From: a virus
Reading direction: 5' to 3' (one strand)
DNA: 20,634 bases
IMG/VR virus record: IMGVR_UViG_3300017782_000293
Location: 1 to 20,634 of that record
The position numbers and the translations under genes are program-made. This document shows, piece by piece, positions 1,698 to 9,067 of the stretch. Numbering within the stretch: the first letter of the stretch is position 1; each line of letters begins with the position of its first letter. A model generated the notes under the pieces. The model was not told the DNA's origin and made no database searches. It saw nothing but the letters and a program-made list of their open reading frames with translations.

Positions 1698-2582
1698 ATG
1701 TGTGTAGCAATAATCAAACCCGAAGGTGTAGCATTGCCTTCGGATGAAGTACTAGAGAGGTGCTTCATTCACAATCCAGATGGTGCAGGTATTGCTGTGC
1801 CATCTGTGGGAGGGGCTGAAATATCCAAGGGGTATTTCGACTTCGATCAGTACTTGGAAGCTGTCAAAAGCATGGTGACTACCAAGAAACTAGCGTTCCT
1901 TCACATGAGGATAGCTACGCTTGGTCAAGTGGATGAGGGTAACTGTCATCCGTTTCCATTGTGTGATGACTACGAACTAATGAGGAACATGGAACTAGTA
2001 CAGGTAGGTACTGTGATGATGCACAATGGTACGTTCGATATGGACAACGAGGTAGACTCTGTGTCCGATACGATGACCTTTGCAAAAGCTGTGTACACAT
2101 CGGGACTAGATCCTTTCAAGGACTCCAGTAGGTTCTTGATAGATCAGATCGCACATCCTTGCAGGGTGGCTTTCATGCGTGGTGAGCATTGGACTACATT
2201 CGGTAAGTGGGAGACAAAGGACGGCTGTATGTTTTCCAATGACTCCTTCAGGAGACCTGTGTACCCAAAAGCTCATATGCACTCTCGAACATGGAGTACT
2301 GGGGCTGGCACTTGGACTAGTAAAGACGGGTACAAGTTGTACTCTAAAGACTATCTAGAGCCAGAGCAGATAGAGCAGGTTGCTCTTGGCTATGATCCTC
2401 TTGATGGGAGTGTGTTAACAGATAACCACAGAGGCACATCTAGTAAGTACGACTATAGTGTCATTGTAAAGTGGCTCAACGAGGCTGACGATAGGGAGTT
2501 GCGATTGTCAGGTGTAGATAAGGAAACTATAAAGTACTGTCAAGAGTACAGAAAGGTGAAACAAAATGGAATCATCAAGTAA
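1698..2582 (+). CDS. class II glutamine amidotransferase-like protein, copy 1
   Basis: The start MCVAIIKPEG puts Cys at position 2, so removal of Met exposes an N-terminal cysteine, the nucleophile of class II (Ntn-type) glutamine amidotransferases. Other PurF-like active-site motifs follow in order: HMRIATLG (69-76, Arg71), CHPFP (83-87), MMHNG (107-111, the Asn-Gly oxyanion pair) and SDTM (123-126, Asp124). These predict hydrolysis of glutamine to glutamate and ammonia. The start is fixed by the Cys: a nearby ATG at 1693 gives only MKCV. The ~150-residue C-terminal part has no motif I recognise. The gene overlaps the amidoligase gene by 17 nt, implying coupled translation and joint action. 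The protein is paralogous to the one at 4004-4846. Fold and catalytic residues are clear; the acceptor substrate is unknown. Confidence 0.82.
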   Translation: MCVAIIKPEGVALPSDEVLERCFIHNPDGAGIAVPSVGGAEISKGYFDFDQYLEAVKSMVTTKKLAFLHMRIATLGQVDEGNCHPFPLCDDYELMRNMELVQVGTVMMHNGTFDMDNEVDSVSDTMTFAKAVYTSGLDPFKDSSRFLIDQIAHPCRVAFMRGEHWTTFGKWETKDGCMFSNDSFRRPVYPKAHMHSRTWSTGAGTWTSKDGYKLYSKDYLEPEQIEQVALGYDPLDGSVLTDNHRGTSSKYDYSVIVKWLNEADDRELRLSGVDKETIKYCQEYRKVKQNGIIK

Positions 2583-3999
2583 GAAAGCTATTAGGAATGT
2601 CCTAAGCTATCTTCATCATCACTCTGAGTTCAGAGGTGAGTGTAGGCTAACGCTTAGAGACCAGAAGTATCTTACCTTAGTTAGAAAGTGGACTGGATGG
2701 TCAAGGTATATATACGACTTAGCAGGTCAACGTATCTTTGTGAAAGGTGCGGAAATCCACGGTCATCTTAGAGGTAGGCTACCATTGCAGTCGTCGGATA
2801 CTACAATCAATGAGAGCGTTGATTCTATCATGCTTCTGTCACTAGACGAAACACTGCTATGTGTGGAAACTGAGGAGGGAGGCTATACTGCTCGTTTACC
2901 GCTAGAGTGGTTCGAAGAAACGTATGAGTACTGTTACGAAAATGTTTCACAGTATTGGATCTGTGATGGCTCAAGGGACATAGTCGCTGGTCACAGATGG
3001 GAGGCTCCTCTCATCAATGGTCACAGGTACTGTCAGGATCACTTGGATAGGTACTTCGTACATTGCGTAGAATCAGGTGAATACGATGACAGTCGAGAGA
3101 TGGTAAAGACTCCAAGAGGTTGGATGACTAGACTAGCTGTGCAAACATCAGAGTTCAGAACCTGTAATAGTTGTGGTAACTTAGCACACGAGAGCTTGTA
3201 CATATCCTTGTGCAACTCTTGTGGTGACCAACAACAATATGATGCTGACAATAGGAGTTATTCTTCAGAGTATCACTCATGTTATCATTGGAAGAAGCAT
3301 ATCTTGGATGACGAGGATGAAGATGTTGTCCTGTACGGCTGTGAGATCGAGGTTGACAATGGACAGCGTGAAGATTCGCTTGACCTTGAGGATATTAGAA
3401 GTCACGATCTAGTAGCTGACATCCAATCAGATGGTAGCTTGGAGCAAGGTTTCGAGGTTATCACTCATCCTTCTTCTCATGGATACCTGAAGGTACATCT
3501 AGGTGACGTAGTACAAGACTCCATGGAGTACATGGATTGTGAGTACGAACACAAAGCTGGCTTTCATGTTCATGTGGGCAGAAGTCATCTAAGTGGTGAT
3601 GCTTGTAAGAGACTTGACTACTTTGTCCACAGGTACAGAGAAGAAGTAACTCAATTGGCTTATCGTGACAGTGATGAGTGGGCTGGCTTCAACAAGGACA
3701 TCAATGATAGGTTCGATCTGTTCGGTAAAAGCAACTCAAGATATGAAGCTATCAACTTCAATAACGATAGAACAATAGAGTTCCGTATGTTTGCTCCTCC
3801 GCCTACCAAGGGTAGAGTAGATATGTACTTGGACTTTGTGAAGTCTGTGGTAGAATACTGTAGACTCACAACTAACTATCATGTTCAAGAGGAGAATGCT
3901 TGGAGGGATTACGTCAAGTATGTGAAAGCCAATAGGCACACCTATGACGTACTAATAAAACATCGGTTGTTCAGAGACCTAATGACAGAAGGAGTATAA
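2566..3999 (+). CDS. amidoligase (glutamine synthetase-like carboxylate-amine ligase) with zinc ribbon
   Basis: This 477-aa protein has an N-terminal region of unknown type (1-195), a zinc ribbon with Cys200, Cys203, Cys216 and Cys219, and a C-terminal amidoligase domain from about 250. Motifs of that family (Pfam amidoligase_2-like) are YGCEIEVD (257-264), SDGSLEQGFEVITHP (288-302), GFHVHVG (332-338) and INFNNDRTIEFRMFA (396-410). The Glu and His residues match the metal/ATP-binding acids of the GCS/GS fold. The expected reaction is ATP-dependent joining of an amine or ammonia to a carboxyl group. Comparative work on amidoligases has reported neighbouring class II glutamine amidotransferases in many genomes, and here they flank both sides (17-nt overlap upstream, 4-nt gap downstream). 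A further His/Cys-rich patch (C133-H159) could bind a second metal. The substrate, possibly a peptide, protein or cell-wall carboxylate, cannot be read from sequence. Confidence 0.85.
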   Translation: MESSSKKAIRNVLSYLHHHSEFRGECRLTLRDQKYLTLVRKWTGWSRYIYDLAGQRIFVKGAEIHGHLRGRLPLQSSDTTINESVDSIMLLSLDETLLCVETEEGGYTARLPLEWFEETYEYCYENVSQYWICDGSRDIVAGHRWEAPLINGHRYCQDHLDRYFVHCVESGEYDDSREMVKTPRGWMTRLAVQTSEFRTCNSCGNLAHESLYISLCNSCGDQQQYDADNRSYSSEYHSCYHWKKHILDDEDEDVVLYGCEIEVDNGQREDSLDLEDIRSHDLVADIQSDGSLEQGFEVITHPSSHGYLKVHLGDVVQDSMEYMDCEYEHKAGFHVHVGRSHLSGDACKRLDYFVHRYREEVTQLAYRDSDEWAGFNKDINDRFDLFGKSNSRYEAINFNNDRTIEFRMFAPPPTKGRVDMYLDFVKSVVEYCRLTTNYHVQEENAWRDYVKYVKANRHTYDVLIKHRLFRDLMTEGV

Positions 4000-4003
4000 C
4001 AAA

Positions 4004-4846
4004 ATGTGTATAGCAATAGTAAAACCAGCAGGAGCAAACGTTCCTAGCTATGATAGAATACTGAACTCGTGGGAGTCCAACCAAGATGGTGGTGGCTTCG
4101 CAGTTCAACGAAAAGGTAAGACTCTCATCAAGTATGAGAAAGGTTACTTCGATATGGATAAGTACTACAACAAGTTAGTAGACACCATTAAACCAGAGGA
4201 CACAGCATTGATCCACATGAGGATCACTACTCATGGTGGTACGTCTAAAGAATGTTGTCATCCTTTCCCTATCAGCCAGGACTACGACAATATGCGTGAG
4301 ACTCATGGCAAGTGTAAAAAGATAATGATGCACAACGGAATACTAGGTGGTGCGTTTGGTCAGGTGGACAAGCCTGGAGTGTCAGACACTATGGAGTTGG
4401 TCAAGTATCTAGCTAAGGCTAACTTAGATACGTACGGTGAAGGCTTCCAAAGACTTATGGAACCTATCCTAGGGTCAGGTAACAAAGTGGCTGTACTAAC
4501 AGAAGATGGGTACACACTAGCAGGTAAGGGTTGGATTAAAGAAGACGATGGGTGCTACTACTCTAACGGTACTTACGAGGATTACTACGCTAAGTATTGT
4601 GGCTACAATAACAACTTCTCGTTCAAGCCTTCCAAAGCTAAGAAGAAGTCCAATCACTTCAAGAAGAAGACTCTCAACAGAGGATACAACAAGGTGTACA
4701 ACTACAAGAAAGTGGATGTTACTAGCTTGCCATCACACGACCAAGATGACATACTATCGTCTGTATGTCCTTCGTGCTTGCAATTTATGCCTGACGCTGT
4801 GTATGGTGATACGGTTTGTAAGTATTGTAACATTGAATATAATTAA
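4004..4846 (+). CDS. class II glutamine amidotransferase-like protein, copy 2, with C-terminal zinc ribbon
   Basis: The N-terminus MCIAIVKPAG again places the nucleophile Cys at position 2. HMRITTHGG (71-79, Arg73), CCHPFP (84-89), MMHNG (108-112) and SDTM (127-130, Asp128) match copy 1 and the PurF-type active site, so glutamine hydrolysis is expected. After residue ~195 comes a Lys-rich linker, and the C-terminus carries a CxxC-CxxC zinc ribbon (Cys255, Cys258, Cys272, Cys275) that copy 1 lacks. The start has AAGGAG (3989-3994) at 9-nt spacing and follows the amidoligase stop by 4 nt. The two copies probably arose by duplication; one may feed ammonia to the ligase while the other contacts a different partner or target. 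Roles beyond the fold are inference. Confidence 0.82.
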   Translation: MCIAIVKPAGANVPSYDRILNSWESNQDGGGFAVQRKGKTLIKYEKGYFDMDKYYNKLVDTIKPEDTALIHMRITTHGGTSKECCHPFPISQDYDNMRETHGKCKKIMMHNGILGGAFGQVDKPGVSDTMELVKYLAKANLDTYGEGFQRLMEPILGSGNKVAVLTEDGYTLAGKGWIKEDDGCYYSNGTYEDYYAKYCGYNNNFSFKPSKAKKKSNHFKKKTLNRGYNKVYNYKKVDVTSLPSHDQDDILSSVCPSCLQFMPDAVYGDTVCKYCNIEYN

Positions 4847-5061: not shown

Positions 5062-7497
5062 ATGGACATGGGAATGTATGACCAACAACTAGAGTTGGAA
5101 AACCAGTCCATAGAGATAACACTAGATAGGTACAAAAAATCTCTCAAGGAGATGGAGGATAGAGGAAGGTCAGGAGAAACAAAGCCTGTGATACTTTTAA
5201 TCTCTCGATCAACAGAAGAGTTAGCTAAGGCTATAGAATCATGGATGTACCCTACGGAAAAGAATCGTGGGTGGAACGCAGGTAGAAAAGCTACCACTAG
5301 ATCAATGATGAAGTCCTTAGATCTCTCACCTTTTGAGATAGCCTTCTGTACCTTGAAGGTAGTGTTTAACTCTGTGGTAAGTGATAAAGGAGACTTCGCT
5401 AGGCAGACAGCTATCTGTATGAGCCTGGCGGATACTCTCATTCACGAAGCAAACTACAGGAAGTTTAAGAGAGAGCAACCTAAGATGCTGCGATCTATAC
5501 AAACTCATGTAGGACACTTGGATACTTATAAGTTCAAGGAGTTAGAGTTCGTAGAGAAAGCTATGGACGAGAAGGGTATCCTCAAGTGTCATCTAGATGC
5601 TGAAGATAAACTACGTCTAGGTCACAAGTTACTTGAGTTGTGTATAGAAGTTACAGGAATGTTTGAATCTAAACGAATCAAGCTGAGTAGAAACAGATCA
5701 CCGTTTGTAGTAATGATAACTAAAGAGATCCAAAAGTTTATAGAAACTAGTGGTGACATCTTAGCTTTCTTCACTCCTACTTACAGACCTATGATAGTTC
5801 CTCCTATAAACTGGACAGGACTTTACACAGGAGGTTATCTATCTAATCACCCTAACTGGAAGCCAGACTTCATACGGAGGATGACGATACAACAGAGGGA
5901 GATGCTCAAGGAGGAAGACTTAACAAAAGCTATGGAGGCTGTGAATATAGCACAGCAGACCAAGTGGAAGATCAATACAGATGTGTTGGAAGTTATGCAG
6001 GATCTGTGGTTTGAAGAAGGTGGCGGAGATGCTGGTCTTCCTAACGCAGACCCAGTACCTTTACCGCCCAGACCTTGGGCTGATATGAGTAAGCAGGAAT
6101 GGGCAGAATACAAAGAATATAATAAAGAAGAAGTATCTAAGTATTCCAAAGCCTGTGCTGACATCTACACAGAGAACAGAGAGATGACATCTAAACGTCT
6201 AGCGTTACTGATGCAGATGGAAATAGCTAAACAGTATAGTGAGTATGATGTGTTCTACTTTCCATGGAATCTAGACTTTAGAGGTAGGATGTATCCCATA
6301 CCTACTACACTCAACCCACAGTCAAATGATATAGGCAAGGGGTTGTTGCAATTCGCTGATGGTCAACGACTTACAGAGAGAGGGTTGTACTGGTGGAAGG
6401 TAGGTTGTGCTAATGCCTTTGGCTTCGACAAGTCAGACTTTGAATCAAGAGTCAAATGGTTCGATGAGAACGAGGAGTGGATAGCTAATGCAGGTAGAGA
6501 TCCCTACTTTGAGCACGGTTGGAGAGTTGCTGATAACCCATTCCAATTCTTAGCATACTGTATCGAGTACGCTAAAGGTGATGGTATCTCTTACTTACCT
6601 GTAAACATGGATGGTACTTGCAACGGCTTACAGCACTTGTCAGCTATGACGCTAGACCCTGTAGGTGGTAAGGCTGTTAACTTACTAGACTCAGACGAAC
6701 CTCAAGACATCTACACAGAAGTAGCTGAAGAACTTAAAGAGCAACTAAAGGTAGATGACGAAGACGGAGTGAACAGACAATGGTGTCAACTATGGCAAGA
6801 CAAGATTGATAGGAAGCTAGTTAAGTCAGGTACTATGACTACACCTTATGGGGTGAGTGAGTACGGAATGAAGGATCAGATACTTGACCAGGCTAAGGAC
6901 AAACTAGAGGGATATACAGTAGACAAGTTTAAAGCCTCTGTATACCTAGCTGAAAAGCTTGGAGAATCCATCAGGAACGTAGTAGTAGGTGCTAGACGTA
7001 CTATGGACTGGTTTGAAGCTGTCGTTGACGAGAGCCCACAGCAGTTCCTTAGATGGCGTACCCCATTGACAGACTTTCCTGTCATACAAAGCTACCAGAG
7101 GAGTAAGAAGAAGAGAGTTAACTTGTTTGTTGGCAGTCAGAGAGTACAGCTACACCTTCAGAAGGCTGTTAACTTACCTGCTGAGGGTAAACAGAAGTCA
7201 GGGTTTAGTCCTAACTTCGTACATAGTATTGATGCTTGTATGTTGATGGCTACAATCTCAAGACTTAGAAGTAAGTGTGGGGCTACAGAGTTCTCGTTGA
7301 TACACGATTCTTATGGCACTCACGCTAATCATGTAGACCATCTACATAAAATATTAAGGGAAGTATTCGTTGAAATATATAGGAATGGCGATATACTTCA
7401 AGATATTAAGGAGCAGTTAGGAGCCACTACTGAACCGCCGAAAAATGGCGAGTTAGATGTGACTGAGGTATTGACAAGTAAGTACTTCTTCCATTAA
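5062..7497 (+). CDS. T7-like single-subunit RNA polymerase
   Basis: The 811-aa product (T7 gp1 is 883) has all catalytic motifs. DFRGRMYP (405-412) matches T7 Asp421-Arg425. MDGTCNGLQHLSAM (516-529) carries Asp517, equivalent to metal-binding Asp537. RKLVKSGTMTTPYG (584-597) matches the O-helix region, with Lys588 as Lys631 and Tyr596 as Tyr639. HDSYGTHA (748-755) carries Asp749, equivalent to Asp812. The C-terminus ends YFFH, an aromatic end like the FAFA foot of T7. It transcribes the replication and virion genes from phage promoters. AAAGGAG (5049-5055) precedes ATG 5062; Met codons 3 and 5 are alternatives. The gene comes after the amidoligase cassette, so that cassette is expressed no later than the polymerase. 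A candidate promoter for this enzyme overlaps its stop codon. Confidence 0.97.
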   Translation: MDMGMYDQQLELENQSIEITLDRYKKSLKEMEDRGRSGETKPVILLISRSTEELAKAIESWMYPTEKNRGWNAGRKATTRSMMKSLDLSPFEIAFCTLKVVFNSVVSDKGDFARQTAICMSLADTLIHEANYRKFKREQPKMLRSIQTHVGHLDTYKFKELEFVEKAMDEKGILKCHLDAEDKLRLGHKLLELCIEVTGMFESKRIKLSRNRSPFVVMITKEIQKFIETSGDILAFFTPTYRPMIVPPINWTGLYTGGYLSNHPNWKPDFIRRMTIQQREMLKEEDLTKAMEAVNIAQQTKWKINTDVLEVMQDLWFEEGGGDAGLPNADPVPLPPRPWADMSKQEWAEYKEYNKEEVSKYSKACADIYTENREMTSKRLALLMQMEIAKQYSEYDVFYFPWNLDFRGRMYPIPTTLNPQSNDIGKGLLQFADGQRLTERGLYWWKVGCANAFGFDKSDFESRVKWFDENEEWIANAGRDPYFEHGWRVADNPFQFLAYCIEYAKGDGISYLPVNMDGTCNGLQHLSAMTLDPVGGKAVNLLDSDEPQDIYTEVAEELKEQLKVDDEDGVNRQWCQLWQDKIDRKLVKSGTMTTPYGVSEYGMKDQILDQAKDKLEGYTVDKFKASVYLAEKLGESIRNVVVGARRTMDWFEAVVDESPQQFLRWRTPLTDFPVIQSYQRSKKKRVNLFVGSQRVQLHLQKAVNLPAEGKQKSGFSPNFVHSIDACMLMATISRLRSKCGATEFSLIHDSYGTHANHVDHLHKILREVFVEIYRNGDILQDIKEQLGATTEPPKNGELDVTEVLTSKYFFH

Positions 7498-8192: not shown

Positions 8193-8610
8193 AAAGAAGC
8201 CAACTAAAGTTAACAGAGGTGACCCAGGTCTTAAACACGGATTCCGTTCGGGCTTGGAGTTCACCTTTGCTAAAGACTTAGAAGAGCAAGGGATACCTTA
8301 CGAGTATGAAAGTACGGTGGTTAAATACACCAAGCCAGAGTCCTCGCATAGGTATACCCCCGACTTCTCCATTGAAAGTAAAAATGGGAAGACTATTATT
8401 ATAGAAACCAAAGGACGCTTCGTATCAGCAGATAGGGTAAAACACTTGTTAATCAAGAGACAACACCCAGAGCTTGACATCCGCTTTGTATTTAGTAGAT
8501 GTAGACAACGGCTCAGTAAAAGGTCTAAGACTACTTACGGAGACTGGTGCGAACGACACGGTTTTATGTACGCAGAAAGTAAAATACCAAAGGAGTGGTT
8601 AAATGAATGA
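8182..8610 (+). CDS. endonuclease I, Holliday-junction resolvase (gp3-like)
   Basis: The 142-aa protein aligns closely with T7 endonuclease I (149 aa). FRSGLE (21-26) gives Glu26 for Glu20, EYE (41-43) gives Glu41 for Glu35, YTPDF (58-62) gives Asp61 for Asp55, and ETKG (75-78) gives Glu75/Lys77 for Glu65/Lys67. KHLLIKRQHPELDIRFVFS (88-106) and YGDWCERHGF are also near-identical to T7. It cuts branched DNA, resolving replication intermediates and helping to break down host DNA. The start overlaps the SSB stop by 11 nt with no strong ribosome-binding site, so translation is probably coupled. Confidence 0.95.
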   Translation: MTSKKKPTKVNRGDPGLKHGFRSGLEFTFAKDLEEQGIPYEYESTVVKYTKPESSHRYTPDFSIESKNGKTIIIETKGRFVSADRVKHLLIKRQHPELDIRFVFSRCRQRLSKRSKTTYGDWCERHGFMYAESKIPKEWLNE

Positions 8611-9067
8611 TGAATACAATCCAGAGGAAGCTTATCATCCTAATCAGGAAGGGTTTGCTTTCGAAACAAAAGATAGCGGAGAACGAATAGAGTTCGAATC
8701 AGGTATGAAACGAGATGTTAATACTGGTAAGGCTAGGTTCGATCTCTTGTTGCCTAAGGGTGTACGCTACGAAGAGCAAATGCTCACAAGAGTAGCAGAG
8801 CTGATGACCAGAGGAGCCTCTAAGTATGGGGATCGTAACTGGGAAAAAGCTGAAGGTGTAGAGGAAATGAATCGTTTCAAAGAATCTGCATTTAGACATT
8901 TCGTACAATGGATGAGTAATGATATGTCAGAGGATCACGCCTCTGCTATTATCTTTAACATCATAGCTTATGAAACAACATTTGTTAAACATTGGAACTC
9001 TGATGAGGATCCTAACGAAGAAACAATACAAGACATGGAAAGGTGGTGGCGAGATGCCAATGGGTAA
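8603..9067 (+). CDS. MazZ/DUF5664-like dATP/dGTP diphosphohydrolase (MazG superfamily)
   Basis: The 154-aa protein has a variable acidic N-terminus, then the conserved core SGMKRDVNTGKARFDLLLP (33-51), GASKYGDRNW (71-80), RFKESAFRHFVQW (91-103) and EDHASAIIFNI (110-120). These are hallmarks of the phage dATP/dGTP diphosphohydrolase family formerly called DUF5664; the Glu, Asp and His residues in the helices bind metal as in all-alpha NTP pyrophosphatases. It probably converts a purine dNTP to dNMP plus pyrophosphate, altering nucleotide pools. The best known member (MazZ of cyanophage S-2L) helps make 2-aminoadenine DNA, but no PurZ is present in this window, so that role is not supported. 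AAAGGAG (8589-8595) precedes ATG 8603, which overlaps the endonuclease stop. Confidence 0.78.
   Translation: MNDEYNPEEAYHPNQEGFAFETKDSGERIEFESGMKRDVNTGKARFDLLLPKGVRYEEQMLTRVAELMTRGASKYGDRNWEKAEGVEEMNRFKESAFRHFVQWMSNDMSEDHASAIIFNIIAYETTFVKHWNSDEDPNEETIQDMERWWRDANG

Follow-up and report, generated by a model that had tools for sequence, protein, structure and literature searches.

A zinc-finger amidoligase flanked by two class II glutamine amidotransferases in a T7-like phage: a putative early glutamine-dependent amidation system

Pairs of an amidoligase and a class II glutamine amidotransferase (GATase) have already been described in phages (PMC10580990, PMC5498523, PMC3890496), and genes for both enzymes are annotated in many phage genomes. 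For the cassette of the phiEco32/LUZ24/tf/RIO-1 type, the idea that it modifies the cell wall goes back, as relayed by the papers that cite them, to Iyer 2009 and Hardies 2013, and this guess has been repeated since 2009. Here, we analyzed a 20,634-base viral record (IMG/VR record IMGVR_UViG_3300017782_000293), the whole of which is referred to as the window; it is a partial phage genome in which genes of these two families form a three-gene cassette in the order GATase A, ligase, GATase B, upstream of the gene for a T7-type RNA polymerase.

The three open reading frames (ORFs) lie on the plus strand at positions 1698–2582 (GATase A, 294 aa), 2566–3999 (ligase, 477 aa) and 4004–4846 (GATase B, 280 aa), where an original prediction made from the window alone had placed them, and every motif quoted in that prediction was found in the proteins. 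The ligase start overlaps the GATase A stop by 17 nt, and GATase B, preceded by a strong Shine-Dalgarno sequence (AGAAGGAG), starts 4 nt past the ligase stop. This arrangement agrees with the coupled block that had been described and makes coupled translation of the three cassette genes plausible. Chance ORFs were ruled out by active sites that remain fixed at only 20–35% identity, together with the conserved gene pairing.

Relatives were gathered from annotated phages, viral contigs and bacterial genomes; the viral contigs were scanned with smaller alignments, A1 and A2 having proved too divergent for this, and the viral survey comprises about 120 loci, some of which overlap or repeat a contig, with 86 distinct ligases at 85% identity. 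The profile check proposed with the original prediction fell short for all three proteins when these were scanned singly: the ligase matched Amidoligase_2 at E = 0.019 (15.3 bits against a cut-off of 22), GATase A matched GATase_6 at E = 0.005 (17.4 bits against a cut-off of 27), and GATase B gave no Pfam match. In NCBIfam, GATase A yielded only weak glmS matches, and no match was found for GATase B or the ligase. Taken alone, these single-sequence scans would have come close to the refuting outcome named with the original prediction; family-level tests reversed this. The ligase orthologue in L015 passes the Amidoligase_2 cut-off at 26 bits, and at E ≤ 0.01 this family (PF12224) is matched by 64 of 70 ligase relatives, while GATase_4 and GATase_6 are matched by 49 and 40, respectively, of 73 GATase relatives.

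With regard to the ligase, residues G258, E260, E262, D289, E297, G332, H334, R367, E405 and R407 are invariant among the 70 aligned sequences, and the catalytic domain (3313–3960) includes E260, E262, D289, E297, H334, R367, E405 and R407; the active site carries the acidic and basic residues expected of the glutamylcysteine synthetase/glutamine synthetase (GCS/GS) fold. AlphaFold models were built for single chains on family alignments. In a search of the PDB, the ligase model matched the YbdK-like protein 1tt4, glutamine synthetases, Dop and PafA, and all its fold matches better than E = 0.1 belong to the GCS/GS superfamily. The predicted amidoligase identity was thereby confirmed, and we regard the assignment of the 2566–3999 product as an Amidoligase_2 ligase of GCS/GS fold, made from alignments and a predicted structure, as settled.

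The same holds for the two flanking proteins, which are assigned to the class II, or N-terminal nucleophile (Ntn), amidotransferases. Using the residue numbering of the 4004–4846 product, Cys2, Arg73, Asn111-Gly112 and Asp128 are present in both GATases, as the original prediction had noted, and C2, H71, R73, T76, G78, H110, N111, G112, D128 and N188 are invariant among the 73 aligned relatives; in all of these, as in both window copies, the cysteine immediately follows the initiator methionine. R73, N111-G112 and D128 are the counterparts of the glutamine-binding residues of GlmS. A profile built from the 73 relatives matched the glutaminase domains of GlmS and PurF in the PDB with E values down to 1e-12, and the AlphaFold model of GATase B (predicted local distance difference test score, pLDDT, 87) matched GlmS, GFAT and EgtC, its PDB search giving a probability of 1.00 and E = 4e-7. 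Family alignments, fixed active sites and fold search lead us to treat the class II assignment of both products as settled at the level of sequence and model. Decay of GATase A was also considered, since position 77 in its T-H-G motif is a leucine where most sequences have histidine; it was rejected, as this position is variable in the family (H in 56, S in 11, Q in 4 and L in 1 of the 73) and the histidine is kept in three sister copies.

A second feature of the ligase is a zinc ribbon (3163–3222) formed by C200-x2-C203 and C216-x2-C219, the counterpart of longer CxxC arrays in relatives; the four columns hold cysteine in 65, 64, 58 and 59 of the 70 sequences, respectively. While the window ligase keeps this single CxxC-CxxC ribbon and a long N-terminal stretch, at least two CxxC motifs precede the ligase domain in 70 of 81 viral ligases, with a maximum of 18 (L136), and at least four are present in all 82 bacterial ligases. 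The ligase of L127 matches the LIM domain at E = 6e-9, and the ligase family profile matches LIM proteins in the PDB weakly; no LIM match was obtained for the window ligase by profile scan. One viral database entry among the ligase fold matches is named a LIM-domain protein, so the domain had been noticed previously, and our literature search found no paper linking 'amidoligase' with 'LIM domain'.

GATase A and GATase B are 35% identical across 193 aa. In the phylogenetic tree, the A copies are monophyletic (100/96), the B copies are monophyletic (100/99) and both are joined in a single clade (99/98); this joint clade indicates a single duplication in the ancestor of the T7-like clade, and the two are therefore paralogues, as had been predicted. 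Separate acquisition of the two genes was rejected on the same grounds. GATase B lies in the ancestral position of the family. Its zinc-ribbon-like C-terminal tail (4766–4828), with two CxxC motifs, is found in five of five B copies and in none of four A copies, GATase A included. Both genes are under purifying selection (ratio of nonsynonymous to synonymous substitution rates, ω, of 0.16 and 0.18 between L017 and L018). The asymmetry of the tail and this selection suggest two maintained, different roles, and GATases A and B probably do different jobs, for instance in a heteromeric glutaminase or through two docking modes. Apart from the window (and contigs of the same phage), only L015, L017 and L018 showed the order GATase-ligase-GATase; the contigs of L016 and L019 end before the site of the first GATase. 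This order is thus kept in the T7-like clade of the window and absent from the rest of the approximately 120 viral loci, so that the remark that two amidotransferases for one ligase are unusual held, and conservation of the three-gene order held for this clade only.

More widely, in viral contigs, Clostridia and Actinobacteria, the ligase gene is almost invariably followed by a GATase gene, the two forming a unit. A GATase lies directly 3' of 71 of 73 ligases in the 80 loci found by GATase query, and of 42 of 46 in the loci found by ligase query, where three more end at a contig edge; in the former loci, 79 of 83 GATases adjoin a ligase. The median gap between the two genes is 3–16 nt. Pairwise distances among the ligases are correlated with those among the GATases (r = 0.69; 0 of 2000 permutations), a figure to which related sequences contribute and which shows joint inheritance, not contact. 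In a ligase clade of gut Clostridia and phages (L010, L123, L127 and bacterial kin), some members have a distant GATase of the GlmS-like branch. Since the same ligase clade pairs with this GlmS-like GATase, the partner was replaced at least once with the pairing kept, and a glutaminase partner would seem to be needed whatever its origin.

A scan of bacterial genomes by ligase pattern yielded 276 relatives; the scan by GATase pattern yielded none, an outcome explained by the narrow pattern and not by absence. Among the best 80 of the 276 matches, which are not a census, resolvases account for 15 of 121 neighbours of the pair, integrases, a relaxase and DUF960 also stand next to it, and the pair is mobile-element cargo in Clostridia. 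Elsewhere among phages, the module lies beside genes for replication and packaging, and no wall or nucleoside gene recurs in these loci. PADLOC defence-system models matched neither the window proteins nor their relatives. Other arrangements were also seen: L039 and L137 have the order ligase-GATase-ligase, the mirror image of that in the window, and L145 and L147 (Nocardia contigs) carry three ligase-GATase pairs in tandem.

Comparison of the window with L015–L019 revealed that the cassette diverges much faster than the neighbouring core genes, under purifying selection and with catalytic residues fixed. Core genes are 59–87% identical, most of them 65–83% (RNA polymerase 71–73%, helicase 75–83%), whereas the cassette is 35–50% identical. 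Between L017 and L018, synonymous divergence (dS) is 0.64–1.07 for the cassette and 0.18–0.22 for RNA polymerase, single-strand DNA-binding protein and endonuclease I, that is, 3–5 times as high in the cassette, in which ω is 0.16–0.28. Because dS itself is elevated, either the cassette alleles have been exchanged or their age far exceeds that of the remaining genome, a pattern pointing to allele exchange. Such divergence is common in host-facing genes and unusual for housekeeping enzymes.

As for the timing of expression, the cassette lies 5' of the phage RNA polymerase gene in all relatives with enough sequence to judge, and this gene (5062–7497, plus strand; T7-type, single-subunit) follows directly 3' of the cassette in the window and in L015–L019. 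Upstream, a consensus scan detected two near-consensus sigma-70 sites on the plus strand: TTGACT-17-TATAAT at 32–60, with TG before the -10 hexamer and 11 of 12 matches, is a probable early promoter, and TTGACT-17-TAGTAT at 122–150, also with TG, may be a second one. From its place behind these sites and upstream of the RNA polymerase gene, we infer that the cassette is expressed early in infection, in line with the original prediction.

Taken together, these results incline us, with somewhat better than even confidence, to the view that the product of the cassette is an enzyme for glutamine-dependent amidation that appears early and acts on a carboxylate, probably of a macromolecule bound by the zinc region. 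Reaction, complex, timing and substrate class are all putative; from what is known of GlmS and GS enzymes, the reaction would run as follows. Removal of the initiator methionine would expose the N-terminal cysteine of the GATases, which would split glutamine by hydrolysis and pass the ammonia on to the ligase; the ligase would activate the carboxylate with ATP, probably as an acyl phosphate, and the amide would be formed there. The zinc-binding N-terminal region of the ligase would most likely recruit the substrate. What favors a macromolecule, most likely a host protein, is that the zinc arrays are variable, that divergence is fast and that the module occurs in phages as well as in conjugative or integrative elements, all of which need to neutralise host factors after entry; taken by itself, this substrate is held at less than even odds. 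An extension that we regard as doubtful is a zinc-finger-guided protein amidation (or isopeptide-forming) system of phages and integrative elements that inactivates or reprograms a host factor, such as a defence protein, directly after entry, acting here as a three-subunit machine with two specialised glutaminases. Several points weigh against the proposed enzyme. Superposition of the ligase model is partial, with low TM-scores (0.2–0.3 of the whole query), and the model is reliable only from about residue 125, the first 120 residues having pLDDT below 50. The zinc arrays could serve to bind nucleic acid or to keep the complex assembled, not to choose a protein, and the fast divergence may partly reflect recombination. 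Finally, the ligase of L008, Clostridioides difficile phage AR1086-1, is zinc-less, and the 130-kb record of this phage holds no recognisable GATase of the family, so the partner is not obligatory everywhere.

Among the other explanations, the one that survives best, and which we nevertheless consider unlikely, is modification of the cell wall, in which peptidoglycan stem peptides would be amidated or added to, excluding other phages or timing lysis. This hypothesis is repeated in the literature for phiEco32, RIO-1, PSA-HP1 and OM43 phages, where we found no experiment on it. The presence of a RimK-like ATP-grasp protein, related to that of phage tf, after the pair in about 30 viral loci agrees with it, but the window clade has none (records of L017 and L018, 38.8 and 28.1 kb), the zinc arrays better fit a cytoplasmic macromolecule than a lipid-linked or soluble precursor, and the module is also carried by mobile elements in Actinobacteria and Clostridia, bacteria in which MurT/GatD has often amidated the wall already. 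MurT/GatD has been described (PMC3267633). It is quite unlikely that the GATase is instead an amidase or γ-glutamyl hydrolase and that the ligase uses another amine. EgtC, an Ntn hydrolase that cleaves a γ-glutamyl amide, is among the GATase fold matches, and GCS/GS-fold ligases such as GmaS also take amines; however, the invariant GlmS glutamine-binding residues and the GlmS-like replacement GATase both argue for glutaminase activity. A small-molecule or peptide metabolite (an amino-acid amide, nucleotide or peptide) serving replication is an improbable substrate. Most GCS/GS enzymes do use small molecules, the nearest solved folds are glutamine synthetases and the YbdK-like protein, and replication genes stand beside the module in many phages, but no biosynthetic neighbour recurs in viral or bacterial loci, metabolic enzymes rarely diverge so fast beside conserved core genes, and zinc-finger arrays would be unexpected. 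It is very unlikely that a carboxylated nucleoside of tRNA or DNA is amidated: zinc ribbons are common in nucleic-acid enzymes and the module sits among replication genes in many phages, but genes for methyl- or hydroxymethyl-bases or for tRNA modification do not recur beside it, nor did the annotated part of the window show a recognisable one.

Genes downstream of the cassette assign the window to a T7-like phage: RNA polymerase, T7-type single-strand binding protein, endonuclease I, helicase-primase, DNA polymerase, 5'-3' exonuclease, head-tail connector, scaffold, capsid and tail tube. A nucleotide search against annotated phages gave no match; the nearest annotated T7-like phages, judged by RNA polymerase, are 32–34% identical, and none of them was among the ligase or GATase matches. 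At the left end, a 60-nt tandem repeat (7–66 and 97–156) carries one promoter-like site per copy and, by resemblance to T7, may constitute an early promoter array; the first ORF past it encodes 38 residues and is acidic (260–376). A perfect 17-bp palindrome, AGTTGACAWTGTCAACT, occurs at 220–236 and again at 1028–1044 (zero expected in shuffles), in both cases inside a 42-nt repeat that precedes an early ORF; elsewhere it was found in near-identical contigs only, and it is a possible operator. Between the ORF at 456–938 and the next block, a hairpin of 18 pairs followed by a T run (951–991) is a probable terminator. After endonuclease I, in the slot of the T7 lysozyme gene, the product of 8603–9067 holds a dGTP_diPhyd_N domain alone (2e-13); related PHROGs are labelled endolysin/RNAP inhibitor, and library scans found no amidase match for it.

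Returning to the described systems, mycobacteriophage Marvin (gp105-gp106) and the OM43 phages MEP401/MEP402 carry the same two families, adjacent and in the same order; their ligases share the Cys-rich N-terminal part, and the Marvin GATase bears a zinc-ribbon tail, as does GATase B. They differ from the window in having one GATase, at 21–31% identity, in unrelated phage types. The phiEco32/LUZ24/tf/RIO-1-type cassette, compared through the phage tf proteins, shares Amidoligase_2, a class II GATase (the tf proteins match the ligase and GATase family profiles at 1e-11 and 5e-12) and an early or replication region; in contrast, it has an extra COOH-NH2 ligase, an ATP-grasp protein and a γ-glutamyl cyclotransferase, the tf ligase lacks the CxxC array, and no relative of the tf COOH-NH2 ligase or cyclotransferase was found in the surveyed loci. 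Bacterial mobile-element copies (Ruminococcus, Oscillospiraceae, Nocardia, Actinokineospora and others) have the CxxC-array ligase and then the GATase, as in phages, but in cellular genomes and often beside a resolvase, integrase, relaxase or DUF960. More distantly, the glutaminase domains of GlmS and PurF and EgtC have the Ntn fold and glutamine-binding residues in common with the window GATases, which, unlike GlmS and PurF, have no fused synthase domain, their partner being a separate ligase. The window ligase shares the GS-superfamily fold with Dop, PafA and glutamine synthetase at about 10% identity, and, unlike in the Dop/PafA systems, no Pup or Pup-like protein was seen. The module is compact and very widespread, with a zinc-finger substrate or docking part, and, being shared, zinc-fingered, fast-evolving and yet catalytically fixed, it is a good candidate for a new covalent weapon or shield in phage-host conflict, while the two-GATase clade offers a natural system for asking how a glutaminase is matched to its ligase. 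Against this background, three points appear to be new: a T7-like clade has a triplet in which the GATases are duplicated and asymmetric, phages and mobile elements can be recognised as sharing a single module of zinc-finger ligase and GATase, and the GATase partner has been replaced.

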